A stretch of DNA of 40,053 bases, taken from the NCBI RefSeq assembly GCF_000003605.2, contig NW_003134860.1:56840-96892 (forward strand). The letters run 5' to 3'. The position numbers were made by a program, and so were the translations under genes. This document shows positions 504-40,053 of this stretch, one piece after another; position 1 is the first letter of the stretch; every line of letters begins with the position of its first letter. The stretch comes from Saccoglossus kowalevskii. Its lineage: Eukaryota; Hemichordata; Enteropneusta; Harrimaniidae. Under the pieces are notes generated by a model. It had not been told where the DNA came from. It ran no database searches and saw only the letters and a list, made by a program, of their open reading frames with translations.

Positions 504-3500
504 GTGAGTAGAACCCGGAGTCTCTATTTCTCAATTCTTAGAAATTCCCTAATGATGTTTTGACAGCTATAGCATTCAAGATTACCAACAAAATGCTTGA
601 AAGTCTGCCAGGCAACCGATTTCTAAAAAAGGTGTTTGTAGGTACTTGCATCTTTGCAGAAAAGTGTAAATAAAATGAATACATGTCACATTGCTCATTT
701 TGTGTATGAAAATCTAAATACTACCGGGTTCTGCCGTAAATTCGCCCATCTGAAAAATCGCCCTGGCCGGTTTCACGGCTGGTGGGCCCTTATTTAGCGT
801 TCAAATTTTCAAAAAAATACCGGATTCGACTCATACTCCGCCCTGGGCGATCTTATGGAGGATTCAATTTTTTTTTATAAAAATGTGGACCAAAAGAGCG
901 CCGGGGCGATGTTGTGGCAGATATTACGAAGCCCGTCTTGTCCGGGAAAATAACCCTGCATTTATAAAAATGGTCTCAGAAAATGTTTAGAAAAAATAAT
1001 GTTTCGCGTTGACCAAATATAATCATGCAAAGTATAAATTCAAAGCGTTTTAATACATTGGTGAGAGATCACATTACGTGAACAAGAAAGAAAAGCAAGC
1101 CAAAGTCGAAACGGGGTGCATCATGGACATGACACAACATACGCTTGCGACAACCGAGTAATCAGCGAAATCATTTTGGCTGCAATTGAACTTCAAGTAC
1201 TTCTTTACAAACTGTTGCTGTGCGGCGATACTGCTGACATCAAGTGTGTGTTGACCGAAGTGTGACCCCAAGTCGCGCACTGAACTGGCACGTTACCGTA
1301 GCAACCTTTTTCTTTCGTGCTCCGCGCGTCGGTTTAGTAAAAAAATTTATTATATCTGACGATACTGTAATCACATAACTTGTCTGCAACTCTGGCTTTG
1401 AATATATCAACATCGTTTACTTGGTGCGCTGCTTTTCTAATGACACAAATTTGTTTACAGTATTGTACCGGCTCTGAATATTTCAACTTTGTAATGCTTT
1501 CATAATAATTGCGCAAACTCAAGTAATTTATATTATCGACTATATAATACGTTGCACTCGTAATAATTACGCAAACATAAACATGGGCGCATTTAAATCC
1601 TAGTAGTCAGGTGTCTTGTGATTCATCGATGTTCCCAATGGTGAATTATTTTATTCAAAATGAAGTGAATATGTAATATAATAAACTCTGGGCAGCGCAC
1701 TTCGATCGCATTATTCACGTACATTTCGACTGATCTCTACTAACCATGTGTTTGAATTACGTGCGGCATTGGGCAATGACCTCCAGAATTCACTAATATT
1801 CAAATTTGGGTCACCCAGCTTCACCCAAATTAATATAGTTACCTATCATTTGTTCAAAAAATCTTTCAACTCTCACAAATACCACAAATGCGAAGAGTTT
1901 ACTGAAAGGGAACGTCTTTTTTGGACAAAAAAACATGTCAAATACAGGATTATGTATGCAAGGTTAGATTTCTAGAACGTACATGACCGCTCAATTTTTT
2001 TTATTTTTAATAATCATGTCGCAGGTGAAATGCAGGAGACATTTTAGTTCGCCAATTTCCTGTTTACCGATCTTTAACTTTTTGTCAAGAGTGCGATACA
2101 GACAAAGATTAAACATTAACGATACCTACCGTTGTCAAATCAACCAAGAGGCTCGAATCAGGAAGGCTTGGGTATTTCAAACTTCGTAAATAGCATTCAT
2201 TTCAAGCGCAGACTTTATTTGAATGTAATAAACATAAGGGAACTGACCATTACCACCCAGCCGGTTTCCTGTGAGTTTGACTCGGTTTACCGTACCGGTC
2301 ATTGCTTTACCGTACCGGCCGGTGCTTCACTGTACCGGCTGGACAATTACCGTACTGATAAGACCAATACCGACTATTTATCACCTTCGATTAATGAATG
2401 CATGATAAACAAAGCCCCGGTAACTGATCGACACCCTGCCGGTAACCGTGAGTCATGCATAAATTAATTGGGCATTTTGCAAACAATAAGAATTTTTTTT
2501 TTACCCATTGAAAAGAACATGACTTGTACAACAGAGTGTTACGTCCCAGTCGACTAGAGGACTCGATGGTTTAATGATTTGTTTGTATTTGTCAGTAGCT
2601 CACACAGTAGAAAGAAAGTCGGACAACCATCGAAATACAAATAAATAAATTAAATAAAAAAGTCTTTCTGAATTTCTTCGCATGTGTTTTTTTCAATATA
2701 TGTGTGTTATTCACATATTCATGATCGCCTGTAACGCTATACAACGACAGTCCTACATAGTAGTTTACCCTCGACGTTGAATAAAACGTCCGAACCTGTC
2801 GCATGAATTCGATGATACTTGCATAATGTGTTAGCGTGACTCGCTTGGCCGAGCTCACATGTATTTAAATTCGGGCTTTGGCATTCAAAAATCTGTTTTG
2901 ATACTTTGACTATAATACGCGCAACGCGTGCACGTAGTCCAGATAAAATTTGAGTGCGTAAAACGGAATTTGACCTTGCTCTAGGTCAACATTTTTCCAT
3001 TGCTTTTCGACCTCATTTTGTGATTTTGTTTATGGAATTGACCCAACATATTTACACACCCCCTCCAACAATCCCCAATGTAACTTTATTATAACAAAAC
3101 AAAACAGAGTGTGCAAGTGTGCCAGTATATCTCTTTTTGGAACATGTGATTGGCCCTGAAAAGGGTCGTTTGGTTTGGAGCAGAATACGATTTAGACTGG
3201 AAAGGTCGGGACTTTTTTTTTGTTTTAAAAAAAATATATATAATTACAGCCAATACAAAGTCAGCTTGGACATTCAGTTGTGAGACATGACAAAATAAAC
3301 AGTGCCAGCCATGGAGTTTGCGAATGAAAGAACAAAATAAACGCAATCAAACGCACCGACCATGCGCGTTGAAAATAAACTAATAGAACGTGTTGCGATG
3401 AGAAATCTCTCCTGCATCTATCATTCACGCAAACGCACACACATGCTATTTTCGTATGTTGAATACGTTGGCAACGTCGTCAAATATATAGCCCAATCAC

Positions 3501-6500
3501 TGAATAAAAAAACATCCAAGCACACGTGCACTGGCGTCAGATGAAGTGAAAAAAATGAAAACAAAATTACGTCTGCACTGTGCATTTGTAACAATAACCA
3601 AAACCATTAGGTTACATGCCAAAACTACCGACTCAGGATTCATCATACACAAATATAGCCACTTTCATGGAACTGTTATTTTTGTAATCCACTTTGTTGG
3701 CTCAGTTGATTTGAGTGCACTAACCCCAATTTTAAAATAAAAATATTGTATAAAATAAAGACACAGTCATATATCCATCATTTGATTCTTCCAAAGTTGC
3801 GTTGACAACGACGGGACACCTTGGTGAAGCTCTCATTTTCACCATGGACGTACTGGGAGCTCCATGGTCTCACAAAAATCACATGTAGCATTATCACGCA
3901 CAACTTGAATGTAAATATTATGCAATAATAATGGTAAAGTTTAATCTCTGACAAATAAAAAGACGCAACAAATTGAACTGGTGGTGTATATGACCTCGAA
4001 AGCTACTGCATAGCAAACATGAACAAAATGATTTATAAACAGACTATAACTACAAACGAAACAAATTCTACTCAAATTAATTCTACAGTTTTGCTTTCTC
4101 TGGCGATCCTGTGCATAAAACTGAAATTTAAACAGGTCGGCATTTTACCGGTAAACCGGAAAATCAATGCATAAATTAACTTGTCAGAAGTGTAAATTGC
4201 CTCCTGCCAGTACCATAACGGCCTTGCGGGTACGGCTTATGACCTTCGGGTACGGTAAAGCAGCGACCGGTACGGTAAAGAAACGCAATTATTTTTAGCG
4301 TCATATTTGAAATAGCGCGCTCGATGCAAGATGTCGGACGGGAAAATTGGGGTCTGTAAAAATGTTTGTTGGTTCAGTCAGGCAATGTGTGGACCAAAAC
4401 ATCGCCCACTATTTGAAACATCGCCCATGGGCGGGGTTTAGGATGGGCAGGGTATCAGCCGAATCCGGTATCATCAAATATTTTTTGGGGGCTTATATTT
4501 TCATTGAAAAATTCACCTACACCGATTTTCAACGCCGGCAGTTGGACCACCCAAACTAAAAGAAACTATTACAGTAGCTAATCTAAAATTTTATACATTT
4601 TTTTCTTGCTGGATTAAAAAGTAGATAGCGCATCTTTATCCAAAAAAACCACATTAACGAACCTCGTGCGCCAAATACAATTATTTTGTTTCATTTTATT
4701 AGTAAAAGACGTTTCAAATAAAAACGAACTGCAACTGCATTGCTTAGTAATACCGTACCCGACTGCGTTAGCGCCCATGCCCGGGCAAGCGCCCACCCCC
4801 CACTTTTGTGCAATTTTTATATTTGGGGTCACATTCGGCAAAGCGCCCACCCTTCAAAATGCAACTAATTTAAAACTTGGTCTTGCGTAACGAATCTTGG
4901 TAATCGTTTTTATAAATGCGTAGAACACGGTAACCGTGCGTAAACTACGCTTGGACAATGACCTGTTAATACATGTAGAATGCGGTAAATATTTCATGCC
5001 ATATACAGTTTACCTCTCATTATATATACCTGTCGTTTATTCGCTGAAGTCAATTCCAACAGATCGTACTTCGACATCGATAATTCATTTCCGCATTGCG
5101 TTACCGGAAAGTCTTCAGGAATTTCCGAAGAATTGCGTCAGTACAACACAGCATTGTGATTGGTTAATAACCAACTTGACCCATTAGGTCAAAGGACGCC
5201 GCTGCAGGTGAAATCTGCAAATGCATCATGGCGGAAAGTGATTTTCATCGAGAGTTTGTCAGTGGAGATAATATGACAATTTTGACTTAGACTGTGTTCC
5301 AACAGACTCAAATGTTTTTAATTTCGTAAATTCTGGTGGTACGTAATAAAATGTGCATATTTTTTGTGATCATTTCTGTTTCTTCATTGTGAAAATCAAT
5401 GACGACTCAACTAATTTTGTAATTTGATTTCCCTCAAAGACGTAATCTGTCACCTGATGAATCAAATTTTTCAATTGCACTCTTTTTCGAGGGGGGTGCT
5501 CGGGTAAGCGCCCACCCCTAAAAAATCATGATTTTCTGAGTTGAGGCCCCTGGGCGCTAACGCGGTCGAGTACGGTAGTAGAAAGTGATCACGGTATCGC
5601 AATCCGGTCATGCTGCATTTTACAATTGTTGATTATTACCTAGTAATGATTATACTAACGTGCAAAAAATATAATTTTGTTGAATTTTATTGAATGCAAA
5701 TAAATTTCAACTTGTTCCATCGTAAGCGAATGATTCCGATCGCATTTTCAGCGCTCGATGCTGTAGAAATGAATATCCGTCATGTTTTAACATGAAATGG
5801 TGTTCTTTGACCCGAAAGGTCAAATCGATAATTTACCAATGAAAACGATGGATGATGCCAATGTGTTCAAAATACCATAGCTCATTTAAATATGTTAATG
5901 TTATTGAACGCAACACGGAAGGAATTTGTCGATGTTTTTGTACGATCTTTTGGCTTGGATTTTGATGGAAAAGCGGCATGATTTTTTTTTAAATAAAAAA
6001 ATTTTTTGTTTTCCAAAGATAAACTGAGCATTTGAATATAATTCAACATTGTTTACAGTGATAACAGCTCATTGTCAAAACAAAGCTAACCCATTCGCGC
6101 TAGTCGCAATAAACATCAATACTTTTGAATTGGCGTCAATGACTGCGGCGAAACTTTTAGGCATCAGAAAAGATTAAAATAACACCTTTAAAAAAACTGC
6201 CGAAAAATCGCCCTGGGCGGTTTCTTGGTCCCAATTTATTTATTTTTAAACCCAAACTGCCGTTTAACAGCCCTGGGCGAATTTACGGCAGAATCCGGTA
6301 ATCTTGTAAAATTGTAGTAGTCCAGTTTGGATACTAATATTGGAAAATGGTACCCCAAGGACGAGATTTACTAGTTTGTGTCTGTGTGATACTTCAAATT
6401 TTGAGTTCTGGCACCAATAGCAATAGATTTTAACATTTGTGGCTAACATTTTCTAAATTGCCCAAGGAACACAATGACATGTATCTTCACACTAACCATT

Positions 6501-8647
6501 CAACTTTACATAATTTAAACTTTTTTATTTTGCAGTGTTTGTTCAGGTCAAAATCAGTTCAACAAAATGCTCAGCAAAATGGTTCTAGACCACCTTCTAG
6601 AACAAGCAATGGTGCTAAATCCCCAGAGCCAGAGCCAGAGCCACAACCAGAGCAGGAACCGGAACCAGAACCTGAAACTGAAAGGGAGCAGGAACCAATG
6701 CCTCTACCAGAAAACGAGAATGACATCAAGAATGAAAATGAAAATGTGGGTGAAAATGAAGTTGTACCACAACCAGACGCAGAACCTGTGCTTGTGCCAG
6801 TACTCTTAGATGATGAGGATGAAGTTGACATTGATCTTCTCATGCGTAAGTATTAATGGTGGTGCATCTAGACAAGTTTATCAAGGCATTTGTCAAGTGT
6901 GTGTAAATTTTTCTTCTGTAGGTTTACAAACACAAATTTGGTGCAGTCAAAAACTGTTCCCAGGCATTCAACCTAATAGAGATGAACAAAATGTTTCAAT
7001 AGTGTCACATGATCTAAAATGAAATGTTCACTGCTAAATTAAAAAAATTGTAACAGTTCCTGACTGAAATTCATGAATATTTGTCTCCCAGGGAAACTGG
7101 TGGACAATGTGGTTGACAGTATTCTTTCATTTCATACGAGTATATCTGGATGGTCAGTATATCAGTGAATTCTTATCTTTTTATATTACATTGTTTTTTA
7201 GAAAGGATACCAGAAAATCCTAAAGCTCTTCTGGACTGTTGTGCTGCTTCTCAAGCGTGCATGGTTCTACTTGTTCTTAAACAACATCTGAAGGACACTT
7301 TTGGATTTAGAGACAGGTAATATAAAAATATTTATCTTTAATATTATAATATTCACACAAAATGTGTGTGATATGGTACACTGCATTTCTGTGTCAGAAG
7401 TACATGTAATACAACACACTTCATATGTTATGGCATATTTTCTTTGTTCTTCACATCAAAATTCAAAATGGCTATTTTCCTTCAATGAATGTTTCATGAT
7501 CCAATTCAAGATGGCTGAATGGTAGACATTTAAATCTAATTATCCACTGTGGTTGAATTCGTGTTTTGTTCTTAGCTTCATGCATATTAGGCTATGTACG
7601 TAGCCAGTAACTATATGTAACATTGGTCTTTGCATGGTATCTTATACTTTTCTGCATTATTTACAGCACTATTCACAGGTATTCCCCTACTGAGGCAGCC
7701 AAGGTGTATGACAAAGCACTCAACAGGAAGCATGGGTTGACCTTTAACCCTGAACGAGCTTTACAGTTTTTGAGGCAAGGCGTTCCACAAGTGCCACTTT
7801 CGGATGAAGCAAAGAAAGATATTGTTTCTGAATACCTGGATGTAAGTTTGTTTTGAGAACATGGCTATTCAAATTATTTTACATAATGTTTAATGGACAG
7901 ATAATAAATTTATTGTTGCAATCTGTGCAAATTAATCAGGGATGAAAAGTGCATCACACTTAAAATCAACTAGATTGTAATTGAAGGTTATTATAGAAAT
8001 AATGGTGTCAAATTGTAAAATTTTACTAACAGCTGCTTTCAATATAAAATTAATTCAAGGATTCAACAATCATATAATCTTATATCAAACACTTATTTAT
8101 CTAATCTTTCATTTGTATAATAGTTCAAAGCATTGATGGAGATGTTGGATCCTGCTGAAGATGAAGAAGAAACTGGCAGAGCTAGTCCCAAAATTGCAGA
8201 AGCAACTAATGCCAGAACACCACAACCTACAACTGGATCTGCATGTGGTACTGCCAGTCCAGGAGGAGCAGACCAACCAAATGCAACAGATAATAAAGAT
8301 GAAAATAATACGGGTAAACAAGAGACAACGACTGTGGATCTAGCTGCTCCTATACAAAGTCTAGTTACGAATATTGGATTAGACAGGACACCGTATCCAT
8401 ACAACCTGCAGGTAATTTCTCATACTGATAGCTGATAATAGCAACAAATTAGCGTGTGAAATATCTATTGAACCCGGTAGGAACTAATGTATCTTGCATG
8501 TCTGTACCTTGCATGTGTTTAACCAGAGCTAAAATGATTAATAACTTTCCACGACAGGTTACAAAGCATCCAAAGAGATCAAAACCGAAGCCAAAGCCAA
8601 AGCCAAAGAAACCAAGACACAGAAAGAGGAAAAGAATATCCTTTTGA
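357..8647 (+). CDS. NIPBL: Nipped-B/NIPBL cohesin loader, C-terminal part (5' end outside window)
   Basis: Six coding exons: 357-503, 6536-6845, 7202-7316, 7667-7841, 8124-8411 and 8558-8647 (stop TGA 8645-8647). All have GT-AG borders and matching phases, giving 374 residues. NIPBL with MAU2 loads cohesin onto chromatin in the nucleus. Exon 1 encodes the end of the HEAT-repeat C-terminal domain (DNLAYFPY, EPLFIMHYI, SVSGANLLQSFKE), closely matching vertebrate NIPBL. Exon 2 is a Glu/Pro-rich low-complexity linker ending in an acidic patch (DDEDEVDIDLL). Exon 3 has LLVLKQHLK. Exon 4 has RYSPTEAAKVYDKALNRK, the counterpart of the vertebrate KYSPSESAKVYDKAINRK. Exon 5 starts with FKALMEMLDPAEDEEE and becomes Ser/Thr/Asn-rich. 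Exon 6 is a Lys/Pro/Arg tail. Identity rests on recalled family sequence. The upstream exons lie outside the window. Confidence 0.93.
818..4470. mobile_element. Element B: 3.65-kb inverted-repeat element nested in A
   Basis: The left end at 818-843 and the reverse complement of 4445-4470 share about 22 of 26 bases, beginning with TACCGGATTCG and ending in GCCC. TA lies at both outer ends. GCGCC/GGGCGAT motifs and a GTGGACCAAAA motif recur near both ends. It contains element D. No transposase is visible. Confidence 0.5.
2288..4277. mobile_element. Element D: 2-kb inverted-repeat element nested in B
   Basis: 2286-2318 pairs with the reverse complement of 4247-4279 with about three mismatches in 33. 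Each arm contains two copies of TTTACCGTACCGG-like sequence, with further TACCGG/TACGG copies inward (2331-2358 and 4210-4235). Several short open frames inside encode nothing recognisable. It is likely a non-autonomous DNA transposon related to A-C by its ACCG ends. Confidence 0.5.
4751..5577. mobile_element. Element C: 827-bp inverted-repeat element nested in A
   Basis: 4751-4777 and the reverse complement of 5551-5577 match at 25 of 27 bases (TACCGTAC, then CGAC, then GCGTTAGCGCCCA). Subterminal GCGCCCACCCC repeats occur on both sides (4789-4800, 5508-5519). The outer TA dinucleotides fit a TA target duplication. No coding capacity was seen. Confidence 0.6.
6536..6845 (+). CDS. NIPBL: NIPBL exon: Glu/Pro-rich linker
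   Basis: 310 nt, phase 0 in, phase 1 out. The acceptor is ttttattttgcag and the donor is gtaag at 6846. It encodes a Gln/Asn-rich start, then an EPEPEP/QPEQEP run, an Asn/Glu run and an acidic end. Vertebrate NIPBL has a Ser/Lys/Asp-rich charged linker at this position, so the location is conserved but the sequence is not. The EP run is likely a length-variable coding microsatellite. Confidence 0.85.
8558..8647 (+). CDS. NIPBL: NIPBL terminal exon: basic tail
   Basis: 90 nt ending in TGA. The acceptor is ccacgacag. It encodes a Lys/Pro/Arg tail with a KPKPKPKPKK run and KKPRHRKRKR, which fits a nuclear-localisation or nucleic-acid-binding tail. It joins the previous exon in phase 0. A potential AATAAA lies only 15 nt after the stop, at 8662-8667. 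Confidence 0.75.
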   Translation, partial: VTKHPKRSKPKPKPKPKKPRHRKRKRISF

Positions 8648-8661
8648 TAGTGCATGTGTAC

Positions 8662-8667
8662 AATAAA
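8662..8667 (+). terminator. Possible polyadenylation signal for NIPBL
   Basis: AATAAA lies 15 nt after the NIPBL stop codon. This would give an unusually short 3' UTR. Other candidates lie further downstream (for example AATAAA near 9925 and 10370), so the real 3' end is undecided. Confidence 0.3.
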
Positions 8668-8996
8668 TTTATCAATGAAAGGCAAGGTTTTTGAGAAGGG
8701 GAAATGTCTGTCCTTTTTGTGGTGGTGGTGATGTTTAGACACCTGGATTTTTACCTTGTCCATATCGTATATTAAGGGAAAATGTCCATGTTGTGGTTGT
8801 TTTCTTGGGATTACAATAACTAAACAGTTTGTATCCACTTCCCTTCAAACATGGATTTTTATATTAACCAGTTTGGGATCTCAGCTAAGTTAGATTATGG
8901 TACATGTCCTATGTATATTTTTCAAGATATTCATTAAATTTCACTTGTCTTTCTGTGATTACTCAAACAATTTTTATCTGATCATCTTAAATTTGA

Positions 8997-9410
8997 GAAT
9001 CTTGGCGATCACTATGAAAAAGTTCAATTTTGGTGTTATGATGACTTTATTTTTGGTCAGAATTGTTTCCACCTAAATGTTAGCCAATGTTTTCCAATAT
9101 TTAAGAGAATCTTAGCGATCACTATGAAAAAGTTCAATTTTGGTGTTATGATGACTTTATTTTTGGTCAGAATTGTTTCCACCTAAATGTTAGCCAATAT
9201 TTATGGGAATCTTAGCGATCACTATGAAAAAGTTTAATTTTGGTGTTATGATGACTTTATTTTTTTTTTGTCAGAATTGTTTCCACCTAAATGTTAGCCA
9301 ATATTTATGGGAATCTTAGCGATCACTATGAAAAAGTTTAATTTTGGTGTTATGATGACTTTATTTTTGGTCAGAATTGTTTCCACCTAAATGTTAGCCA
9401 ATATTTTCCG
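8997..9410. repeat. Tandem repeat, four ~100-110-bp units
   Basis: Units begin at 8997, 9107, 9207 and 9311 with GAATCTTRGCGATCACTATG and run to TTAGCCAATATTT. Units are nearly identical. Spacing is 110, 100 and 104 because of a differing unit tail and a T-run expansion near 9261. The array lies 350 bp downstream of the NIPBL stop, possibly in its 3' UTR. It has no open frame and no spacers, so it is not a CRISPR array. Confidence 0.92.
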
Positions 9411-11280
9411 CACAAAATCTTTAGATATTATTGCATTGTTTCATGACTTTTATAATCAATTTTGCCGTGCAAAGAAAAGATATTGCATTTTAGTTGGTTT
9501 ATCCATCCATACATTTGTTATTTAATCTGGGTTCTCAATGGACAAGGTTTCTTGATGCTCTTTCAGACATTAATGGATGTACATTGTGAATTTCTCTATT
9601 GTTTTTTCAATTGTATTGATTTTCCCTTAACCCTTGTTACTTTTCTTTGGATGTCAGTGATGGAGACAGCGGTTCCAGTGATCCAGACTTCATTGTGTAA
9701 CCGAGAATGAGAAATCTAGGAACGGGAATATTTATCACAGTACTTTAAAAGTGAATCTAATTCCAAAACTTTAATGTGATTGAAGGATTAAATTTATCTA
9801 TTGTGCTTGCATTTTTGGAGGAACTGAACCTTTTCAAGACTTACTTAATCCTAATCATCGGCTAGAAGAGCCCATGGAACGATAATGATTCAGACATCTA
9901 ACTATCATCTGTGGATTCAAACAATAAATACATTCCGGTCCTAATCAACTTTAATGTCGGATGAAGATATTACCTTTGCGCTGTGGTCAACAATTAGGAA
10001 TGTTGCTCTTTTATGTACAGCAGAATTGAGGGGATGGCTTCAAAAACTTTGCTTAATGAAATGCATGATGTTCACAAACCTCCCCAAATGTCTTATTTCA
10101 GCTGTTTTACTTGTGTACCAGATTCTACCATGAACTCAGTAATACTATTTGTAAATACCATTTTTGTCACATACTTTATTTTGGAGATCATAGTTACTGT
10201 GTTCATCACTTATTCTTTGATTTACACATGAACAATGGGGGAGGCTGTACAGAGATAGCATTTGTGAAGCTAGAAAATTTTACATTGTATGTTTGACATA
10301 TAACTGAACTAGATTTAAACTAGTGTATCATATTGCAACAAATTATACAGCTTTCTTATACTATTTAATAAAAAATACCATTAATTTATGTCTCTTGTAC
10401 TATATAGGACTAAGTTCTTTTTTTGAAAAATGATATGCAATCATAAAAGAATTTAGAATTTGCATCTAAATTATAAAGAAAAAACTGAGACATTTGAATT
10501 CTTTAAAATTGCTATTTTTATTATCAAGGGTTATGTAGCTGTAGATACAAAGTCGCTAATTCTGTAGTTAGAGAAATTTTCCTGTAACTTTTTAAAAAGA
10601 ACATGTTTATACAGTTTATACTGCATCTTATTTTCAATTTTTCCAAGTGTTGAGAAAACTCTGCCACTTTTATGTAAAACATCTGCCAATATTTTAAGAA
10701 TTGGTCCTTATTAAAGTTGTCGTGTTCATGAATTTTCCTTTGTGTTTATCTTCATCAGTGAGGTTATCAGGTTTGGGCTGGCCAAGCCAAACCAAACCAA
10801 ACCAAACCAAACCAAACAGTCTGATTTTTGCCCAAAACATTGATGCACATTTTTGATCTATGGCATAGATAGTCGTGTATTTGAATGTTGCGTCCTGTTC
10901 TTCTTTGCACTGTCTCTATTCTCAGTTGTTCAGTGAACATTTACCAAATCAGTTCACCTTTCTAGAACTTCAATGATAAATTGAGAAAAATTGCCACTTT
11001 TCTATGTACCGGTAAATGTGCTCAAAAATGTCTGTCCTTGGTGTATCTATCAAGATTCTCAATTGGGACAAGGTTGTAATAGTTATGCTATGTTTTATTC
11101 ATGGTTCAACTCTTGGTTGCTAGGAATGCCAGGCATCATTGGTAGAACATGGCAAGTTGATTTGGTGCTATTAAATTCTAGTTCTCCTCTTGTTACACTT
11201 TCAGTAATACACTAGCCAAGCAGTACTTTCAAATAAATTGTTCGGTTGTATATTTTTTTAATGGCTGCTGCTATGTGCAC
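9411..11280. other. Intergenic or 3' UTR sequence with no gene seen
   Basis: AT-rich sequence with scattered AATAAA motifs and only short open frames lacking splice or family support. It includes the AACCA microsatellite listed separately. Part of it may be NIPBL 3' UTR. Confidence 0.5.
10781..10817. repeat. AACCA pentanucleotide microsatellite
   Basis: About six uninterrupted copies of a five-base unit (AACCA/CCAAA register), preceded by an imperfect GGCCAAGCC copy. Confidence 0.9.
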
Positions 11281-11289
11281 ACGTTTGTT

Positions 11290-12010
11290 AGTCCCCGAAA
11301 ACGGGGACTTATGTTTTGACCTTCGTGCGTTCGGACCTGCATCTTAGAAATGCCTGGGCCAATCACAATCAAACTTCACACATACATCATACATGATAGT
11401 ATACATATGCACGTCAATTTGTTTCACCATCTGATTCAAGATGGCCGAATGGCGGCCATTTTTGTGCTAAAAATCATCAAAATCAAGCATTTCTCGGCTG
11501 TTTACAGATGGATTTTGTTCAAACTTGGTATATACATTAAACATTATGGGACCTTAATGCAAATAATTTTGTTTTTCAGATAAGATTCAAAATGGCCGAC
11601 TGGCGGCCATTTCGTTTTAATGAATGTGGTTCTCGTGCCATATCTCTGACTTGCTTTCACTGATTATGTTCAAATTTTCAATATACATCATGTCATAGAC
11701 AGATATATTGGTTTGACGATCCTATTCAAAATGGCCAAATGGTGGCCATTTTTGTGCTAAAAAATCATCAAATATCAAGCATTTATGGATGGATTTCGTT
11801 CAAACTTGGTACATATGTTAGACATTACAGGTTCCTGATGCACATCATTTATTTTTCAGATCGAATTCAAAATGGCTGTCTGGTGGCCATTTTGTTTTAA
11901 TGATTGGGCTTCTAGAGCCATATCATGCTTTGACTGATTATATTCAAACTTTATATATTCGTTATACATCATGTTATATATATACATGTATTCAAAATGG
12001 CTGATTTTGA
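11290..12010. repeat. Degenerate ~145-bp tandem repeat array with AATGGCC..GGCCATT palindromes
   Basis: It starts with a TCCCCG-AAAA-CGGGGA hairpin (about 11292-11307). Imperfect units then follow, each with a core palindrome of the form AAATGGCCNNNTGGNGGCCATTT, at about 11439, 11590, 11729 and 11869, and a half unit at 11992. Shared phrases such as TTGTTCAAACTTGGTA and GAGCCATATC recur. Fragments of the same repeat occur at 7460-7530, 28440-28760 and 31975-32060, so the family is dispersed. Confidence 0.75.
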
Positions 12011-12679
12011 ATGCTGTTCCAGAGCAATATCTCTCTATATGGACAAGTACTTGTTTGACGAGCAGATACAAATGTCAATCATTTTAATGTTAAAAAATCA
12101 TATTCCTGACATGGTTATATTCCAGCTATATTACTATAAACAAAACTATATGTTAAATTTGATAACTAACTGGGACTGTGCCATGCATGGCTTGTTGTTT
12201 TCTGTATGAAATCATTATTGATTACATCTGGCTTGTCACTATTCCAGCCATACAGGAGTTACCATCAGAAGCGGCATGGGATGGGCGAGATCTGCTCAAT
12301 TTTGAAATCTATACTCACTGAAATGCTATTTCCTGCATTTTGAGAGGCAAATTTTGGTGGGGCAAAGCCCCTCCAATATTTTTTTCGAGGGGGGGCGACC
12401 AAAACCAAATTGCTTGTCTTGAGGAAAGTCACTCATAAATTTCATGTTGGCAGTGGTGAAGAATCATGTTTTCTATCAGAGGTCATCACTGCCATGTGAC
12501 AGGTGGTTGCACCCAGTCATGCATGTGAGTTCACCCAACACAAACTGGACTTAGGATGATTACTCCAACTCAGGATGGTTTACTGCACAGTTCATCTGTC
12601 AGAGTATGCTCTCTGACAACTTCCTTACTGAACTAGATTGGAAGGGTTCTTACCTACATATTATTAGACAGGTATCATC

Positions 12680-12850
12680 TACTGTAGAATACTTTATTTT
12701 TGCTCGGAATTAATTTTGGCTGAAGGAATGATAATATACCTTTTTTACATTCAATTTGTCAAACGTCAGTGAAAATAAATTCCACACAAAGTACCAAAAA
12801 TGTCTTTTCAGCGAATATTTATTCCAGCTAAAATAAAGTATTTTACAGTA
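12680..12850. mobile_element. Palindromic MITE, copy 1 (171 bp)
   Basis: Begins TACTGTAGAATACTTTATTTT and ends AAATAAAGTATTTTACAGTA, with internal self-complementary arms. Three relatives lie at 31122-31327, 38194-38363 and 39182-39384. Confidence 0.8.
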
Positions 12851-12934
12851 TTTGCCAACCCACAGCCCACCAGAATAATGGCATCTGTGACACAGCTAGG
12901 GCATTCTATATGTGTATGTGTTCTATTTAGTGAT

Positions 12935-13573
12935 GGTAGTACCCAATCTCCCAGGCAGAGTTCTATTCCACGAATATATCTCTGCCACCACGCGATCTTA
13001 TGCTCATCGTTGATTGGTCGATGCGTCACAGTGGTACTTCTTTCAAAGACGCTCACCAAAACATTGTCAGCAAGTGTTCGATTTTCGAACCCGACGAATG
13101 TGTACGCGTTGTTTGCAGATTTTGGCTGTTTTCAAAGTTAGAAGCTTCTTTTTTTTTTTCTGTAACACAAACGGTGCGGCAGTAGGAAGATTTAGTCGTC
13201 AATACTACGAAGTTCTTTCGTTAGCTTGTAATTCTTCGACTGGCAGACGACAGGTGAAGAAGTTTTATGAACCGAGTAACACCTTGGTAACGGTTATTAT
13301 GCAATAGAATTATTTTCTTTTGTAATTTATAGCTATTTCACCGTTTTAAGTGCGTTTACAAAAAAATCATTATCAGTTATCAATGAAATATTTTAAAACT
13401 AGTTTATCAGTAGGAATAAATCAACACAAGATGCCTCTCATAACAAAAATACGCAAATAATTGGCGTAGTAAAAGTCTTGTGGTGTTTCACCACAAAATG
13501 GCGGTGTGTGGTGGCAGAGATACTTTCGGTGATCTAACCGCAAGGAACTCTGGGAAGGAGAATGGGTAGTACC
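12935..13573. mobile_element. Inverted-repeat element, about 640 bp
   Basis: The left arm 12935-12994 and the reverse complement of 13505-13573 share GGTAGTACCC/GGTACTACCC, CAGAGTTC and TATCTCTGCCACCAC blocks with small indels. The right end runs straight into an AGTACC/GGTACC microsatellite. The centre has no recognisable coding region. Confidence 0.5.
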
Positions 13574-13614
13574 AGTACCAGTACCAGTACCAGTACCGGT
13601 ACCGGTACCGGTAC
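13568..13614. repeat. AGTACC/GGTACC hexanucleotide microsatellite
   Basis: About eight six-base units, changing from AGTACC to GGTACC halfway. It begins inside the terminal GGTAGTACC of the adjoining inverted-repeat element. Confidence 0.92.
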
Positions 13615-14560
13615 TCAAAAACTGTGCTGAGTCATTTGAGAACCATTGCATCATCCAGGACCATCTGAGTCAACTTCCACACAACAACCCTGACTTTTAG
13701 GGAGTAAGCCCAAAATTATTTTACCTATATGTCCCTGATTTGTTCAGTTTCACCAGACACCAACATCATTGCAACACCAACACATCTTCTCTACCATCAT
13801 GCGTAGCTTAATTGGCAAATATCTCTATTCAATATGGGCGACTACAATAGTTTTTTTTTGGTCCTTTTTAAAAATCTTGTTTGTATCAATCAGTATTTCA
13901 TATACAAAGTACTAATTGAGACCTGATACAAGAAGCGTGTATGAGAAGGTGATGTCAGATTATTACCAAATAAACTCCTGAATACCAGCACAAGCCATGG
14001 TTGTTCTTTTGCAGTCAGTGGAAAACAAAACCTAAGGCAAATGTGCTCATACCATTGTATAAACAACATTTGATTGATAAATTTTCATCATGAAAAGTAC
14101 ACATCTGAGACTGATTCTTAATCCCAGGGTCAATGGTTCATATCCCCACACATGGGATGCCAACAGCTTACCAGTATATTCACAAAAGTTTGGATTCTAA
14201 ATACAAAACAGATCAAAGTTAAACTGGAAATAGCTCCCGTGTGATCAGAGCATGTATTATAAAGGTATAGGCTTTGCCTAATAAGTGAATGTAATTGCAT
14301 GTAGGTCAATCCATCAATAAAATTGATCAAGATGTCTGAGAACCTATGACATACTGTATATGGAAACACATAATTTTGATATGGGCATTTTGAAAAACAT
14401 GCACGGACACTATACTTGTAAACAAAGGGCACTAATGAGGCACTCTATGAATGAGGTATTTCTAGAGGTCGGGGTTTGTCTAGTCTGCAGTTGAATAATT
14501 TTTGCTTTGATTTTCTTATGGGTTTTTTTCCCAATGCGACTTAATTTCACTTGTTTTTTT
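13615..14560. other. Intergenic sequence, nothing recognised
   Basis: AT-rich, with only short open frames lacking family similarity or splice context. Confidence 0.5.
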
Positions 14561-14908
14561 TAATTCGGGCGAAACGAAAGCGACGCAGGCCCGAGAACAC
14601 TACATGTAACCAGCACATTTACAAATCAAGATTGGCAGAAAGTTGTACGGCATCTGTCTTCGATTTTGTCTATTGATGAATATGACGCACAAAGTGAAAT
14701 TGAACTTGCGCTCATGAAAATCGGAAAGGGTACTGCTTTTTCGTCGAACTCAAAAAATGGCCGCGTCACTCTTGTAACTGCGCATGCGTACTCCCCATAC
14801 TCGCATACATTTGATGTTTTTAGTCGCTGTATCTACCCAAATAACATCCATCATGATATAATAAATCATTATATACTAAAATTCGCAAATTTGCAGACCT
14901 TCCGATGA
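14560..14908 (+). other. Promoter-like patch with a short unassigned open frame
   Basis: A locally GC-richer stretch. 14750-14795 holds an AAAATGGCCGC (YY1-like) motif and a TGCGCATGCGTA (NRF1-like) palindrome, which are common in housekeeping promoters. An open frame from about 14600 to 14908 reads through DWQKVVRHLSSILSIDEYD and IELALMKIGKG, which looks protein-like but matches nothing I know. It could be a first exon, a gene relic or chance. Confidence 0.25.
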
Positions 14909-14959
14909 AATATTACCAGTTTTTTTTGTTTGTTTTTTTGCAACAGAATACGTTATTGC

Positions 14960-16420
14960 AATAGATAAGATAAGATAACAGCTTTATTACAACCGTGTAG
15001 AAAATTTTACATTTCTAATTTGGTGTTTAAAATGTAATAAAGTTAATAATGAATAACTAAAAAAGTAAGTAGGCGAAAGTTGAGTAAATAAAAAGTTAAA
15101 TAAGTGTGACTGAGTGTATTCTTTTGTTTGTTCATTTACTGTTACTCAAGTACACATAGAGGGCTATAATAGTATCTTTATCTTTTGATTATAAGATATG
15201 TTTAAATTGTTTTTCTTTATCCAAATTCAGGAANNNNNNNNNNNNNNNNNNNNNNNNNNNNNNNNNNNNNNNNNNNNNNNNNNNNNNNNNNNNNNNNNNN
15301 NNNNNNNNNNNNNNNNNNNNNNNNNNNNNNNNNNNNNNNNNNNNNNNNNNNNNNNNNNNNNNNNNNNNNNNNNNNNNNNNNNNNNNNNNNNNNNNNNNNN
15401 NNNNNNNNNNNNNNNNNNNNNNNNNNNNNNNNNNNNNNNNNNNNNNNNNNNNNNNNNNNNNNNNNNNNNNNNNNNNNNNNNNNNNNNNNNNNNNNNNNNN
15501 NNNNNNNNNNNNNNNNNNNNNNNNNNNNNNNNNNNNNNNNNNNNNNNNNNNNNNNNNNNNNNNNNNNNNNNNNNNNNNNNNNNNNNNNNNNNNNNNNNNN
15601 NNNNNNNNNNNNNNNNNNNNNNNNNNNNNNNNNNNNNNNNNNNNNNNNNNNNNNNNNNNNNNNNNNNNNNNNNNNNNNNNNNNNNNNNNNNNNNNNNNNN
15701 NNNNNNNNNNNNNNNNNNNNNNNNNNNNNNNNNNNNNNNNNNNNNNNNNNNNNNNNNNNNNNNNNNNNNNNNNNNNNNNNNNNNNNNNNNNNNNNNNNNN
15801 NNNNNNNNNNNNNNNNNNNNNNNNNNNNNNNNNNNNNNNNNNNNNNNNNNNNNNNNNNNNNNNNNNNNNNNNNNNNNNNNNNNNNNNNNNNNNNNNNNNN
15901 NNNNNNNNNNNNNNNNNNNNNNNNNNNNNNNNNNNNNNNNNNNNNNNNNNNNNNNNNNNNNNNNNNNNNNNNNNNNNNNNNNNNNNNNNNNNNNNNNNNN
16001 NNNNNNNNNNNNNNNNNNNNNNNNNNNNNNNNNNNNNNNNNNNNNNNNNNNNNNNNNNNNNNNNNNNNNNNNNNNNNNNNNNNNNNNNNNNNNNNNNNNN
16101 NNNNNNNNNNNNTTGCCACATGTAAATCGCCTTGTATCTGGTTTGCATCCCGAATTCCTGAATATAATCACTTGCGTTTTGTTTGTGTTTACTTGTAGCC
16201 CCCAGTCTGAAGTGTATTTATGGAGAAAGTCTATTGCAGTTTGTAATCCTTCATATGATTTTGATAGTAGTGCAATGTCATCAGCATACAATAGGCTATT
16301 GATAGTTTTATTATCCAGTTCTGGTACAATTGTTTCAATTTCTGTGAGTCCTGTATTAAAGTCATTTATGAAGATGTTGAACAGGGTTGGACTCAAAGGG
16401 CTAATTAGGCTACCTCGTCA
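14960..16420 (-). mobile_element. 5'-truncated non-LTR retrotransposon (LINE) fragment, interrupted by N gap
   Basis: Minus strand. The frame from about 16417 down to the gap at 16112 encodes a reverse-transcriptase core: LSPTLFNIFINDF, then the catalytic LLYADDIALLS (about 16277-16291) and GLQVNTNKTQVIIF. A stop sits just upstream near 16417, so the 5' part is missing or broken. Beyond the gap, the minus strand near 14990 reads AATAAAGCTG and ends in a TTATC tandem tail (14964-14978), a typical LINE 3' end. That both sides belong to one copy is inference. Confidence 0.7.
15234..16112. other. Assembly gap (879 Ns)
   Basis: A run of unresolved bases. Open frames spanning it are artefacts. It lies inside a LINE-like fragment, a usual cause of assembly breaks. 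Confidence 0.99.
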
Positions 16421-18313: not shown

Positions 18314-18526
18314 TATTTCATATGCTAGCACTGCGTATTGACTATACGAATAGTTACATTAATGTAGTATTATTATTGCAAGTCTAAATTTGCAAAACAT
18401 TGCCATGATTACGTTATCTTTTTAGGCGTTTCTTTGCATATAACGTTTAATAATAAGTCAAGTAAAATCGGAAAGGAAATGAAATGATTTGAGCAAAGTT
18501 GACATCTATTGCATGCCCGTATTTTA

Positions 18527-20313
18527 CAGCGGGCGCAAGATATTTACATACACCTAACTCCCGCACCCGGTAGGCATTTACCGATAGATTTTGCAACATC
18601 CCAGATACTTTCCTAGACACTCCAGTGACCGTTGTGGACGCAATAAAGTTACATACACGCATACGTGACAGTTAATCCAAATTAATTAATTAATCAAAAC
18701 ACCGGACGCGGCCATGAGGGAAGAGGGGTAGTTGGACAATTTAATTGATTTGTAGGAACAAAAATCATTGCTGTGTAACGCTTGCGAGAAATATAATACG
18801 AACATAAAACGGGAAACGAATATTAACAAGAAATGATAAATGTAAATTCTTTTGATTGGTAGTGTCATGAATTTGTTTTTGCGTATCTGTTGACCGACTT
18901 AATTAGCTGATTATTAGCGAATTGCTGTGTTATGTCTGTCATCGTTTAGGCCTATTTGAAGTTTTGGACGGAACTTGGCTCAGTGATTTGGAACTAATTA
19001 CCAGATAACCGCCGCTATTCAGACTATTCATTCTGACAGTTTATATTCATAGTTATTAATGTAGTGAACGATTAATCAAAAGATATGACGTATTCAGTAC
19101 TTAGTGTGATTGGCTTTATGATTGAAGGTTACGCCCTAGAGTCTTTTTACTGTTTTGTAATTGGTTAGAGTTTTGAAAATGAATAAAGAGAGTTTTGAGT
19201 TGGTCTTGACGAGTACACCACGAGAGACGAGAGACGCAGTCGAGAGTGCAGTCCTGGGGCGAGCCTTGAGGCAGTCCAGTCTTGGGCGAGTCTTGGTTCA
19301 GCCTTGCAATAGTCTTGGGGATTTTTCCCCAGGGCGCTGTGTCTTATAGAGTGCTCGATTGACCGACTAAGACGAGAGCTGAAACGTATTTCGTTGTGTG
19401 TGTCGTATTTGACTGTAAAGTTAAAGTGACTTTCCCGATCCCATACCTCAAGGGGACGAGATATAGAGACGAGACGAGATTCCCCCCTGACACGTGTAGA
19501 GAACCCAGAGAGAGAAGAATTTTCCCCCTGATAGTAGTTTGCTGAGATGTTCTCAATGGTTCATATTAAAATATTAACGTTGTGGGTGAAGCGTTCTATA
19601 TTTCTCGAATAATGGCATGTCCCATTGCCTGTTTGCCAGAACACTCATCGTCCAGTCATTCTTTTCTGGAATCTTCTACTTAGTTTCACCTCCACACCGT
19701 CACCATATACCAGTTTAAAATATCCTCCGGATCTGAGACGAAATTCGATAAACTCAACGATTTCTCGTGTAGACTTCAGTCGACGACGGTCACTACTTCT
19801 ATCGGAACGTATTGATCTAATGCGACAGAAATGCAGAACAATCCAGTGAACCTTTGCTCGTCCAACTTCCTCGTCGATTGTTCGCAAAAGGCGAACAATT
19901 TCCATTTGAGTGTCTTTGTCTACACGCTTTGGCATAATAGCATTAATTGTACAGTCAACAATTAGTTGAAAATAATACTAGTAAACTGCATTCAAAACTT
20001 AACTGTTCTCACGAGGGTAGTTAAATAATTTCCTTAAATTTGAGGGGCGTTTTTAAATAATTGTATCAACAAGGTTTATTATTAACATGATTGTTTTGTA
20101 AATGTTTGACGGGACGCTTACAAGTTGTAATAGTTGAACCCGTCTGAAACCTTGGTCCGTTGTTTTGTTCACGTGGGCGGGTATCTAATTTTATTGCGTC
20201 TACAACGGTCACTGGATTGTCGAGAAAGTATCTGGAATGTTGCAAAGTCCCTCTGCAATTGCCCACCGGGTGGAGGGAGTTAGGTGTATGTAAATATCTT
20301 GCGCCCGCTGTGA
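18527..20313. mobile_element. Block bounded by ~125-bp inverted repeats
   Basis: 18527-18650 (read on the minus strand) and 20184-20313 (plus strand) share long blocks such as ACAACGGTCACTGG, GAAAGTATCTGG and GGGAGTTAGGTGTATGTAAA, roughly 85% alike. Small indels make the apparent reading frames diverge, so the repeats are non-coding. They may be the ends of a ~1.8-kb transposon or two inverted insertions of one short element. Confidence 0.5.
19645..19935 (-). CDS. Unassigned Arg/Lys-rich 96-residue open frame
   Basis: ATG-initiated minus-strand frame starting MPKRVDKDTQMEIVRLLR, with an Arg-rich middle (RSDRSSDRRRLKS) and a TREIVEFIEFRLRSGGYFK segment that could form helices. No family was recognised. 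It lies inside the inverted-repeat-bounded block, so it may be a remnant of a mobile-element protein. A chance open frame is also possible. Confidence 0.25.
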   Translation of the reverse strand: MPKRVDKDTQMEIVRLLRTIDEEVGRAKVHWIVLHFCRIRSIRSDRSSDRRRLKSTREIVEFIEFRLRSGGYFKLVYGDGVEVKLSRRFQKRMTGR

Positions 20314-20599
20314 ACTTCAAAGATATATTACATGTAATTTGGATTTGGAATGTGGTTTCTACATGTTGGTTAATCAACCAGTTCTTAAATATTTAAATAT
20401 GTAAAAGTTCACTTGCTTTACCCTTTATGTGATAAAAGTGTAATCCGACACTTTCCCTGTACTATGTACTACATTGCTTTCGGACACATGTTTCCAGGGA
20501 ATTTCCCGTAATATAAAGTATAGGGTTACTAACTTTTTTCCCTTGGTATCACAACTAGTACAGCCTACCATGTACCCTGGCATAACGTACAACATAACA

Positions 20600-29900: not shown

Positions 29901-32900
29901 GAATACGGCAGAGAAGGTTAAAAAGCTTAGAAATACTGTTTGTGGTTTGCTAAGGTCGGGGCAATAGTTTGATGGAGGGGGACTCGTAATTGCCCATAAC
30001 TGATATAGTGATATTTAGAGGCTCCAAGCATCAGTCGTCATGCAGCGAGTGTTCAAATTTTAATGAATTTAACATGTGTTGCATTTGGCCCATAACAAAC
30101 ACTACACTATGTGACACTTGTGTTGCAATAAAGCAATTATGAAGGGATATTCCATGTTTGTTGGGGGTGGAATTGGGAGGGGTTGTATGGTGAAGGTGAC
30201 TACATGCAGATGTAAATGTTTTTTTTTTTTGAGCAGCAGTACAATGTTTTCCAATAATTTTAATTATACTGCTTGTTAAAAAGTAATGGTAAATCATAGA
30301 AGGTAAATTAACTAAAAGTAACGCATGGAATTGTTAAAAAAAAATAGTCAATTAGAAATAATAATTAAATGAAATGACAATTACATCTAACTTGAGCATG
30401 AAATTTTAGAAACTTGTACTATTCTTGTGAAGTGTATCAGTATGGGAAATCTTTTTTACAATTAAAACGCTTTCAACCTGCTGCAGTATGACAACCCCAA
30501 ATACAATGTATTTACCTTATGACTGATACAATTGTAGCACTTTCTTTCGACCTGTCTTGGAGTGTTGGTTTTGATAACACAGTGGCCAATTTTATTAAAA
30601 ATTTGGTTCCCTCGTAGCTATTTCTATAGAATTAATTTGTGTACAGTTGTGAAAGTATTTGGTATACACCTGGAGAAAAGGTGTTTAAACAATCAGACAA
30701 TGCACAACAATTATTTCATTCAGCATGTCCACTTTTACTAACATAACTGATGCAACTCTATTTAAAAGACATGCGGTTGAACATTTTGTTGTAATGAGAA
30801 GATTGTGTAATAGAGAATAATACTTTGTAGCAGTTTGACCCACTGAAATCAGTTCCTTCTGATACAAGACTATAGGGACTAGTCAAAAACAAGCTGCTAC
30901 AGTTGTATCTGTCATAACATACGGTAAATGCATTGTTACTGCCGGCTTTCATTTATTGCTAGTTGACCGGTTTTAATTTTATCAGGGTCAAATTGGTTTG
31001 TCGAAAACGTATAAAACATAGTTAGAATTTAAATCTTATTATCAATTAAATTTAGTGTATTGAAACTTGTGAAAATGCTAGTAGTAGACTGGTTTCAGTT
31101 GGGTGTTTTATGTTAAAATAATACTGTGAAATACTTTATTTTAGCTAGAATTAATTTTCGCTGAAAAAACTTTTTGGGTGTTCTCTATGGAATTTATTTT
31201 GATTTTGATTTGATTGATTTTGAGTTGTATGTAAAATAGAGATAACAGGTATATTCGCTGGATTTTATTTTCACTGATTAATTCCTTCAGCGAAAATTAA
31301 TTCCAAGTGAAAAAGTATTTTACAGTAGGTATTTTATGAAATTTAGCAAGTTGATTGTCAAATAAGTCATCAATGCCAAATCATCCCGACTGGAGCTTCT
31401 TGAGGACATAAAGCGTTAAATGGGGTGAAACTTGGTTCTGAGAACTTTTTTTTGTGTGCTATCACCATGGTAGTGACAAACAAGCTTCGTTTTATTCACA
31501 TAATGTAGTTTATGTATTTAGTAGCTGTGATTACTCTTTCAATGTTAGTGGTTTTTGCAAGTGTCTGAAGTGTATTAACTATCATTGATATCTCTTCACA
31601 GGGTACAGGCATGCAGTCGGTGACAGGTAAGTCTTTGCCTCCTGATAATTGGTTAAGTGCACTATGAGTTGTAAACCCTGTTAAAACTGATAATACCATT
31701 GTAATAAGTCTTCTACTTTCTGTATAGCTTCTGTACTTAGTAATGTGGTAGCATGTCTTTGATTGGCCTGTTAAAGTGGAATTGTGGTCATCATAAATGT
31801 CCGTAAATGCAAACTTTGTTCGGTACTAGTCATCTTCACTTATTATGGGTAACTGTTGACACTAGTGATCCACTCGCTCCTAAAAACCAATATTCAATGA
31901 ACATGTCAACAGTTTCTCTAGCATGCCAAATCACTAAAATTAAAGTCACTCATGGCAGGTTACTGATGTGGTTTGATTCAAAATGGCTGGCTGCTATGTT
32001 GGTGGTACATTTTTGTGTCCTTAACCATTTCTCAGATATGCCTTGACCAATTTTGTTGAAAGTAAATACAAAGATGGTAACTTTAACATGTTAATGTGTT
32101 TTTTGTTTAATTTGAACTGATCGCAATATATTGTGAAAGGTTAGTTTGAAGTACAAGGGCGTTGTATAACAACACCTGTCTATGTATCACCTCGTTCAAT
32201 AATTAAAACCTTGGTTAATGCTTATGAAGTGTTCAAATCCTTCCATGCATTGCTGGTAAAAGAGTGGCTTTAGTTTTATTGACGTGGCACCAATTATATT
32301 TGATTTTTGACATTTGCTGCATTTCTTCTACAGACCACCTTCCCCACCCCAGGTACAGGTGGCGAGACATTGTCAGTATTAATCAATCAGACACTGGTTC
32401 ATTAATGCTGTTTTTGTTGTGATTCAACTTCACTATAAGTAACTTTTCCAGCACCTTTAAAAATTCATCGTTCATTTCTTATAAGCTTTGTGCCGTTCTT
32501 GTAAATTTTCAATGTAAAGATCCTTTCTCTTTTGCAGGAGAGTGTATTCTGTTGGACGGAGAGAGATCATGATGAATGGGGTAAGATATCCTTCTGCAAG
32601 TGTTGGTCAGTTTCAATACGTGAGTTAGAGTTTTATGATGCACTTAGGTTTTCCTAACTTCTAATTCCTAGTTAGTTCCATGCTTGCTGCAGATGAGAGG
32701 AACCGCATGACCTCTCCATCCTGTTAAGAGACAGATACTGAAAACACAGTACTATGTAAATAGATTTCATCAGAATGGTCCCAATTACATTTCTGTTGGC
32801 TGTCTTTCATTATCAATTTACTGTACGAGCGACAGGAGTGGAGATCAGAATTTATGTGTAATGAAATATACAGTACACCATGAGAATTTTATTTGTTTTC

Positions 32901-38817: not shown

Positions 38818-40053
38818 CTGTAAAGAGAAATGAAATGAAAGTGGTGTTTTTTTAAAAGTGCTTTATTTAAATGATAAGAATCATGCTCAAAATAGCCATG
38901 TGTTCTAGGAAGTATGGCCTATTTTGAACTCCAAAATTCAAGTTGATTGAAGCATTACTGATTGAGCACATTGTAGACTAGCAAACAAAAAGACAGGTGT
39001 TCAATGTGCTTGCACTTGTGTGCAAAAGTTGCTTAGCAACAAGAAACAACCTGTACATGCTGATTTCCATTTTGATTAGAGTCATTTAACCAGAAAAATT
39101 GATTGTTATTCATGCTATATTAGACAACATGGCATTTAAATTCAAACATATGAACAGTCATGCTTCATTTCCCTGATCTAATACTGTAAAATACTTTATT
39201 TTAGCTGGAATGAATTATTGCTGTAATGACGTTTTGGGTCTTTTGTATGGAATCTAATTTTCACTGATTTTTGACGAGTTGAATGTAAAATATAGGAAAA
39301 AGGTATATTTGCTGGATTTTATTTTCACTGACTAATTCCTTCAGCGAAAATTAATTCCAAGTGAAAATAAAGTATTTTAGAGTAGTAGTAAAGGAGAAAA
39401 CACAGTGTTTAGGTATTTACACAACATAGCCATAGAACTGAAAATTGCCAAGGGTAAAATAAACTGATATGGAAAAGATTTCGTTTAAACTGATTTTCAG
39501 CATTCAGATTTCATTTAGAATGTCTGACAGTTTGCACATTTTTTCTGCTCAGGTAATTTGACCAACTGGCTACTGTATTTTAGTTCTTAGAATAACCTAA
39601 TACGGTCAAACCTGTGATCACCTCTATATGAAAACCACCTGCCTGTAGTGACCACTTTTATGCAATTTCAGGGCATAACCTGTGTATAAAGACCAACCGT
39701 CTTATGTGACTACAAAATGTCACCAATATTTTTTCAGAATTCAAAACCAAAATACTAATTTTTAATTTCCTTAAGTCAGATTTATTTGAATTTTGATCAG
39801 CTCAAATAAGTATGTTTTTTGTTGTAACAGTGCCACCTCATCATTGCCAGGAAAAATATTATGTAAGATTTACGAGTTTGTGATAAAAAAAATAATAATC
39901 TAACATTTATACCAAGATGAATATATAGATATTATAGGTGCATATGCTGCATCTATTAGATTGTTTATTTTGCCTTAAAAGGTTCGTGCCAGATTGAGAG
40001 TATTTATCATGTATGATACTTTCATCATATTTATTTTTTTCTAGAGCTGCTGA
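38818..40053. other. Probable intron of the minus-strand gene
   Basis: AT-rich, with MITE copy 4. I looked for an earlier minus-strand exon ending in the phase required by exon 38817-38754 and did not find a convincing one. A plus-strand patch at 39501-39551 has splice-like borders but no support. Confidence 0.4.
39182..39384. mobile_element. Palindromic MITE, copy 4 (203 bp)
   Basis: TACTGTAAAATACTTTATTTTAG to AAATAAAGTATTTTAGAGTA. Long form like copy 2, and both carry ATTTTATTTTCACTGA-type inner arms. Confidence 0.82.

Follow-up and report, generated by a model that had tools for sequence, protein, structure and literature searches.

Nested transposon insertions within an older repeat occupy most of a NIPBL intron in Saccoglossus kowalevskii

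Nested transposons in introns, including miniature inverted-repeat transposable elements (MITEs), are well documented, and 'nested insertions' is a phrase that the literature on such elements already uses in the text available to us. Several described groups resemble the elements considered here. In the available portions of the sources, PIF/Harbinger transposons are described as duplicating a 3-bp TWA target (PMC4482050), 2-bp duplications are reported for the animal TRC elements SmTRC1 and Spongebob (PMC1636069, PMC4298943), ESTA is reported to duplicate TA (PMC12730594), and ISL2EU is described with an AT duplication and a terminus that usually starts with GG (PMC4482050). The current study concerns a 40,053-nucleotide stretch of Saccoglossus kowalevskii DNA (hereafter the window; contig positions 56,840-96,892 of NW_003134860.1), in which one intron holds four inverted-repeat elements, A to D. 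We screened the host genome (572 Mb in 4830 contigs) for copies of each; all genome match counts are lower bounds, as scoring was limited to the best candidates. Our results indicate that the intron almost certainly records ordinary cut-and-paste insertions in layers, in which an old repeat holds A, A holds B, B holds D, and C also lies inside A.

The gene is identified as NIPBL because 354-503 (E 8.5e-16) and 7665-7844 (E 1.4e-13) match Nipped-B-like protein, which bears out the setting given in a first-pass annotation made from the letters alone. The splice sites of the intron were read by eye, with GT at 504 and AG at 6534-6535, and A with its contents accounts for 5579 bp of the 6032 bases (~92%). 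The layers outside D are as follows.

504-6535, + strand: NIPBL intron, ~6.03 kb (6032 bases), from exon homology; GT/AG read directly, start of the 3' exon by eye.
642-721, + strand: old diverged dispersed repeat (level 1), left part, from realigned matches of the joined flanks of A.
6301-6409, + strand: old host repeat (level 1), right part, from the same realigned matches.
722-6300, + strand: element A (level 2), non-autonomous DNA transposon with TA duplication and termini TACCGGATTCTGCCGTAAATTCGCCC; ~1.1 kb without B and C.
722-819, + strand: left segment of A including the TA target of B, from the join in the alignment with B and C removed and the single TA at empty sites.
4471-4752, + strand: middle segment of A, between B and C, whose last two bases are the TA target of C, from the same alignment and empty sites.
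5578-6300, + strand: right segment of A, from genome matches and the same alignment.
818-4470, + strand: element B (level 3), non-autonomous DNA transposon with TA duplication and family termini TACCGGATTCGGCTGATACC.
4751-5577, + strand: element C (level 3), non-autonomous DNA transposon, 827 bp long, with TA duplication and a 27-bp terminal inverted repeat (family form TACCGTACTCGACCGCGTTAGCGCCCA).

The edges first placed at 722/6300, 818/4470 and 4751/5577 hold for A, B and C. Their inverted end pairs lie at 717-748/6274-6305 (91% complementary), 817-843/4445-4471 (85%) and 4743-4777/5551-5585 (86%), and the terminus reads TACCGG.. from both edges of A and of B, and TACCGTAC.. from both edges of C. 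These ends are abundant in the genome. The 26-nt end of A has 138 matches at one mismatch or fewer (73 + 65; 100 listed), the 26-nt end of B has 95 at the same tolerance (51 + 44), and the 27-nt end of C has 96 exact matches (55 + 41); the reversed-pattern control gave none for any of the three. Fifteen fetched copies of A have unlike flanks outside the same edges as the copy in the window. A query with 5590-6300 returned 44 rows genome-wide; it stops at the right edge of A and so is no test of that edge. For B, the query 722-1000 returned 40 rows (of 263 candidates), and all 39 non-self rows start at query positions 79-147, where the edge of B is at 97, so that any one of them covers at most the final 18 bases on the A side. 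Copies of B elsewhere start and stop at the same edges, and many lack D, for instance L012, which has both ends within 1655 bp; among inverted pairs of B ends picked by eye, 15 of 23 are spaced 1555-1929 bp apart, that is, at a D-free length. The query 4740-5590 gave 58 rows (best 40 of 794 candidates), with 21 non-self places covering C end to end within 3 bases, and both termini are present in 25 of the 29 C loci fetched. Half-length copies of C were considered as parts of a larger element and rejected: three of the four were fetched, and all three stop at runs of N. The left flank is near-identical in six B copies (L003, L004, L006, L007, L013, L030) and another is shared by L017, L020 and L025; at these loci B seems to be embedded in other repeats, which later spread.

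The empty sites of B and C carry the order of insertion. Both elements were removed in silico so that each join kept one TA, and the resulting 1103-nt sequence served as a genome query. Among the best 40 of 784 candidates, 34 of 55 match rows (32 places) span the two joins within one alignment; 18 of the 34 start at query position 1-13 and end at 1102-1103, with 82-88% identity. At the B site, 10 of the 15 fetched A copies read ..TTATCATC.. with a single TA, the other five being mutated or deleted. At the C site, L064 and L084 retain ..AATAATAGTAGC.., which equals the flanks in the window with one TA, and of the remaining 13 copies 10 are six bases shorter and three have other small gaps; C is present in none. 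The single TA at these empty sites shows that B and C are later insertions into A, each with a TA duplication. The paralogous empty sites thus support the order already proposed for the nest, A, then B and C, then D; the nesting fixes neither the order of B and C nor that of C and D.

Element A in turn lies in older sequence. When its flanks were joined (354-723 + 6301-6560) and searched against the genome, nine rows were returned, two of them pieces of the window itself and seven from other places at 70-81% identity, six of which span the join. Realignment with other settings left four of the seven spanning it (L101-L104), and three of these four read CTAAT with one TA, like the joined window. 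A was therefore inserted with a TA duplication into an older, diverged dispersed repeat that covers at least 642-721 and 6301-6409. The inverted pair 679-699/6464-6484 was tried as the ends of this repeat and is unsupported, there being no such paired ends in its other copies. The nest first described as having four levels is thus genuine, and it goes down one layer further than had been recognised; the old repeat that hosts A had been overlooked, as had the loss of the right end of D, and D is the one of the four elements that had been wrongly delimited and wrongly assigned.

The edges of D had been placed at 2288/4277, where an inverted pair is 74% complementary over 72 nt. This pair lies in a subterminal array of 20-bp tandem units, and other copies of D extend past both positions (query 2270-4300; 104 rows, best 40 of 260 candidates). 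The true left end is at 2238 (GGGAACTG...), beside a 3-bp TWA target, and the right terminus is missing in the window. The features of D are as follows.

2238-4287, + strand: element D (level 4), non-autonomous and, by its termini, of PIF/Harbinger type; left terminus intact (GGGAACTGACCATTACCACC), right terminus missing.
2235-2237, + strand: TAA target triplet to the left of D; the right copy is absent.
2286-2365, + strand: left subterminal array of D, degenerate 20-bp units (TTTACCGTACCGG...), containing the earlier left end.
4200-4287, - strand: remnant of the right subterminal array, 20-bp units, limits approximate, containing the earlier right end.
4286-4288, no strand: deletion junction with one shared A, from right ends of other D copies and from copies of B.

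Sixteen fetched ends and L062 show that members of the D family begin with GGGAACTGATCATTACCACC... and close with the inverse of that sequence. Read by eye, 17 of 18 family ends adjoin TTA or TAA, L068 having CAA, and the copies in which both ends are seen (L062, C1492) have TTA on either side. The terminus pattern has 27 genome matches, compared with none for the control, and forms inverted pairs 1734, 2102, 2137 and 2741 bp apart. The TACCGTACCGG motif is a 20-bp unit that recurs several times within each end, in numbers that differ among copies; TACCGTAC, once read as the terminus of D, belongs instead to this internal tandem array, as other D copies show. The termini and the TWA target assign D, on the letters of its ends, to the PIF/Harbinger type. 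No partner was found among 62 DDE_Tnp_4 genome rows set against the 27 D termini, none of the rows lying between paired D termini; the two share one contig, C568, where the row is 5.2 kb outside the D copy. Within D, 3245-3476 corresponds to one arm of another repeat, with matches at 22 other places; at 13 of these places a second match in opposite orientation lies within ~1.5 kb. This arm seems to have been captured before D spread, because L062 aligns with the D of the window over its whole length.

Comparison with D-less copies of B reveals what the window has lost. Such copies (e.g. L012) read ..AATAAGCGTAA followed directly by GTGAAATG.. and, after 173 bp, AATTATTTTTAGCGTC, while the window reads ..AATAAACATAA, then D from GGGAAC to AAACGC, then AATTATTTTTAGCGTC. 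Absent from the window are the last 51 bases of D, counted on other D copies, and ~173 bp of B by L012; three other B copies put the missing part of B at 78-92 bp. Most simply, one later deletion took the right end of D and the adjoining B sequence, and it would have taken the right TAA as well.

The idea that related elements landed in one another is right for A and B, probably right for C and wrong for D, and the shared start of TA followed by CCGG or CCGTAC is likewise found in A, B and C and not in D. The terminal majorities are CCGGATTCTGCCGTAAATTCGCCC for A, CCGGATTCGGCTGATACCCCGCCC for B and CCGTACTCGACCGCGTTAGCGCCC for C, and all three have terminal TACCG, CGCCC at positions 22-26 and a TA duplication. 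In a gapped comparison, shuffles as good as the real pair numbered 0 of 5000 for A-B, 608 for A-C and 1535 for B-C. Compared in register over 24 positions, A and B are identical at 17 (5 of 100000 shuffles as good), A and C at 14 (171 of 100000) and B and C at 14 (430 of 100000); along 7001-15000, 8000 placements reached 14 or more matched positions with A once and with B never. The Repbase superfamily rule for non-autonomous elements, in the available text, asks for equal duplication length and at most one mismatch in positions 1-11 (PMC4455052). A and B agree at 10 of 11, which places them, as far as termini can tell, in one superfamily. C agrees at 7 of 11 with A and 8 of 11 with B, outside the rule, and is still a probable, more distant relative, because 14 of 24 with each is rare among shuffles. 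The terminus of D matches A, B and C at 8 of 24 positions each (26231, 29893 and 29973 of 100000 shuffles as good) and at 4, 4 and 5 of the first 11, with a 3-bp rather than a 2-bp duplication; by these measures D is unrelated to the other three and of a different class. D was misread as kin because its internal unit, which is no terminus, resembles the end of C (8 of 11, 439 of 100000 shuffles); the likeness is weaker over 24 positions, with 11 identical (4150 of 100000). A subterminal tandem array can thus be taken for the end of an element, which then seems kin to elements unrelated to it.

These comparisons bear on the alternative that four elements of one family, D included, inserted into each other. 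The in-register agreement of A, B and C and their common TA duplication and CGCCC speak for it, but the termini of D match no other, D has a TWA target, and C does not reach significance in the gapped test, which leaves a single family of four very improbable. Even less can be said for one large foldback or composite element moving as a unit with the inner inverted repeats as its own parts, the other possibility raised by the first-pass annotation: the inverted pairs are indeed nested or side by side, but each inner family has many free-standing copies genome-wide, the observation that the annotation had itself named as decisive, and the genome has plenty of A copies that lack B or C, so we give this idea almost no credence. 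That the assembly artificially joined separate repeats is just as remote, for although the genome is in 4830 contigs and contains, in another place, at least one almost perfect 8-kb palindrome that looks suspicious, the junctions of A, B and C, unlike mis-joins, all fall at termini with TA duplications that fit the empty sites, and the sole run of N in the window (an assembly gap) is at 15234-16112.

Divergence from the family majority decreases inward, in keeping with the order of layered insertion: 6.4% for A (15 others 3.5-7.1%), 4.1% for B (four others 2.3-5.4%) and 2.7% for C (25 others 0.9-4.7%). Across 2003 alignment columns, D and its sole full-length relative, L062, show 106 mismatches (90.7% identity with gaps), or ~2.6% each if the mismatches are split equally. 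Differences in age would account for this trend. Some points weigh against the layered reading. The empty sites all come from paralogous copies, with no allele or sister species that lacks the nest; the joined-flank genome search revealed no second haplotype without A, the full-identity match being the window's contig only. The 15 A copies were chosen from rows already spanning the joins, the exact empty site of C rests on two of them while 13 carry other variants, and the right side of D is uncheckable since it is missing in the window. The copy sets behind the divergence values are unequal (A 16, B 5, C 26, D 2) and their ranges overlap, and the order is not proven by divergence.

The layers of the intron almost certainly arose by successive insertion. 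The old dispersed repeat was present first, and the non-autonomous A entered it at a TA. B and C each entered A, both at TA, and the target that D, non-autonomous and of PIF/Harbinger type, used in B was a TAA. The right terminus of D, with adjoining B sequence, was probably lost afterwards in one deletion of ~220 bp. The enzymes for all elements were probably supplied in trans, as we infer because no element holds a recognisable transposase: the six frames of 701-6321 contain none in Pfam, the sole row at E<=1 being a sub-threshold DUF6272 (E 0.15).

No autonomous partner of A or B was found in the five longest end pairs picked, and transposase families of Tc1/mariner and CACTA were not searched genome-wide. 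At C1190, the long pair of A ends belongs to an almost perfect palindrome of 8 kb whose arms each contain one copy of A; this locus (L098, C1190:2960-10990) is its own reverse complement at 98.5% and represents either a genuine large inverted duplication or a palindrome created by the assembly. In two more long A pairs, copies of A are broken up by other sequence, and one of the two pairs contains a run of N. A 4.9-kb B pair (L099, C2663:84540-89490) is a B copy split by a foreign insertion with a DUF1759 piece inside (E 2.7e-07), presumably a fragment of a BEL-type retroelement, and a 2.6-kb B pair is a longer B copy.

Several further repeats lie in the window. Another inverted-repeat element of ~1.83 kb has ends of ~160 bp at 18502-18668 and 20169-20335 that are 82-85% complementary. 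A short family starting TACTGTRAAATACTTTATTTT has several copies (12675-12854, 31103-31313, 38191-39388), and similar sequence also stands beside the D copies L073 and L078. At 8976-9406 and 11404-11987 a 117-bp unit occurs in four tandem copies spaced 100-110 bp apart, and there is a diverged ~140/280-bp tandem with core ATTCAAAATGGCC.

The nest as a whole is ordinary, well-documented transposon biology and a known kind of system. Termini and the TA duplication are what A, B and C offer for classification, and any superfamily named for them is tentative. A TA target duplication, as in Tc1/mariner, is seen in all three as a single TA at empty sites, and with termini of ~26-27 bp, no transposase and tens to hundreds of copies they resemble MITE-like derivatives of that superfamily. 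Sizes of 0.8-1.9 kb, as in A, B and C, are long for a MITE, and Tc1 termini usually have a CAGT-like start. The termini of A, B and C begin instead with CCGGATTC or CCGTACTC, unlike Tc1 starts, and no transposase links them to Tc1/mariner. CACTA/TRC and its TA-duplicating relatives share with them the 2-bp duplication and repeated subterminal motifs, which are also typical of CACTA, but A, B and C have CCG where, in the descriptions available, animal TRC elements start with CCC and most CMCT elements have CA..TG. CACTA/EnSpm does not fit by its terminus, as the three majorities have CCG in place of CAC/CCC; the 2-bp duplication fits, and the published rule for the terminus, in its available form, is loose. 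ISL2EU does not fit either, the duplication being TA and the terminus CCG, and IS3EU, for which the available account gives a 6-bp duplication and, in fungi, TAYGG termini, was rejected as by eye no 6-bp direct repeat stands beside A to D. PHISTA, the TA-duplicating PHIS elements, has a 2-bp duplication as in A, B and C, but is described, in the text at hand, from rust fungi. A literature search on the exact terminus strings returned no relevant published match. It is unlikely, though conceivable from their termini, that A, B and probably C form one TA-duplicating lineage (TACCG, CGCCC at 22-26) with a transposase outside the recognised animal superfamilies.

D is like PIF/Harbinger elements in its TWA target duplication, its terminal inverted repeat starting with GGG and its length of ~2 kb without a transposase; it differs from described non-autonomous members in that each of its ends has a subterminal array of 20-bp units and in that the window copy lacks a right terminus. 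The intron offers an internally controlled transposon stratigraphy in a conserved gene, in which nesting gives the relative age of the layers and the organism's own genome provides the empty sites of the TA elements, and it leaves the general picture of transposition unaltered. Compared with nested transposons and MITEs described in other introns, it is the same in principle, including the use of paralogous empty sites, and stands apart in its extent, with four levels and with A and its contents taking up ~92% of one intron.

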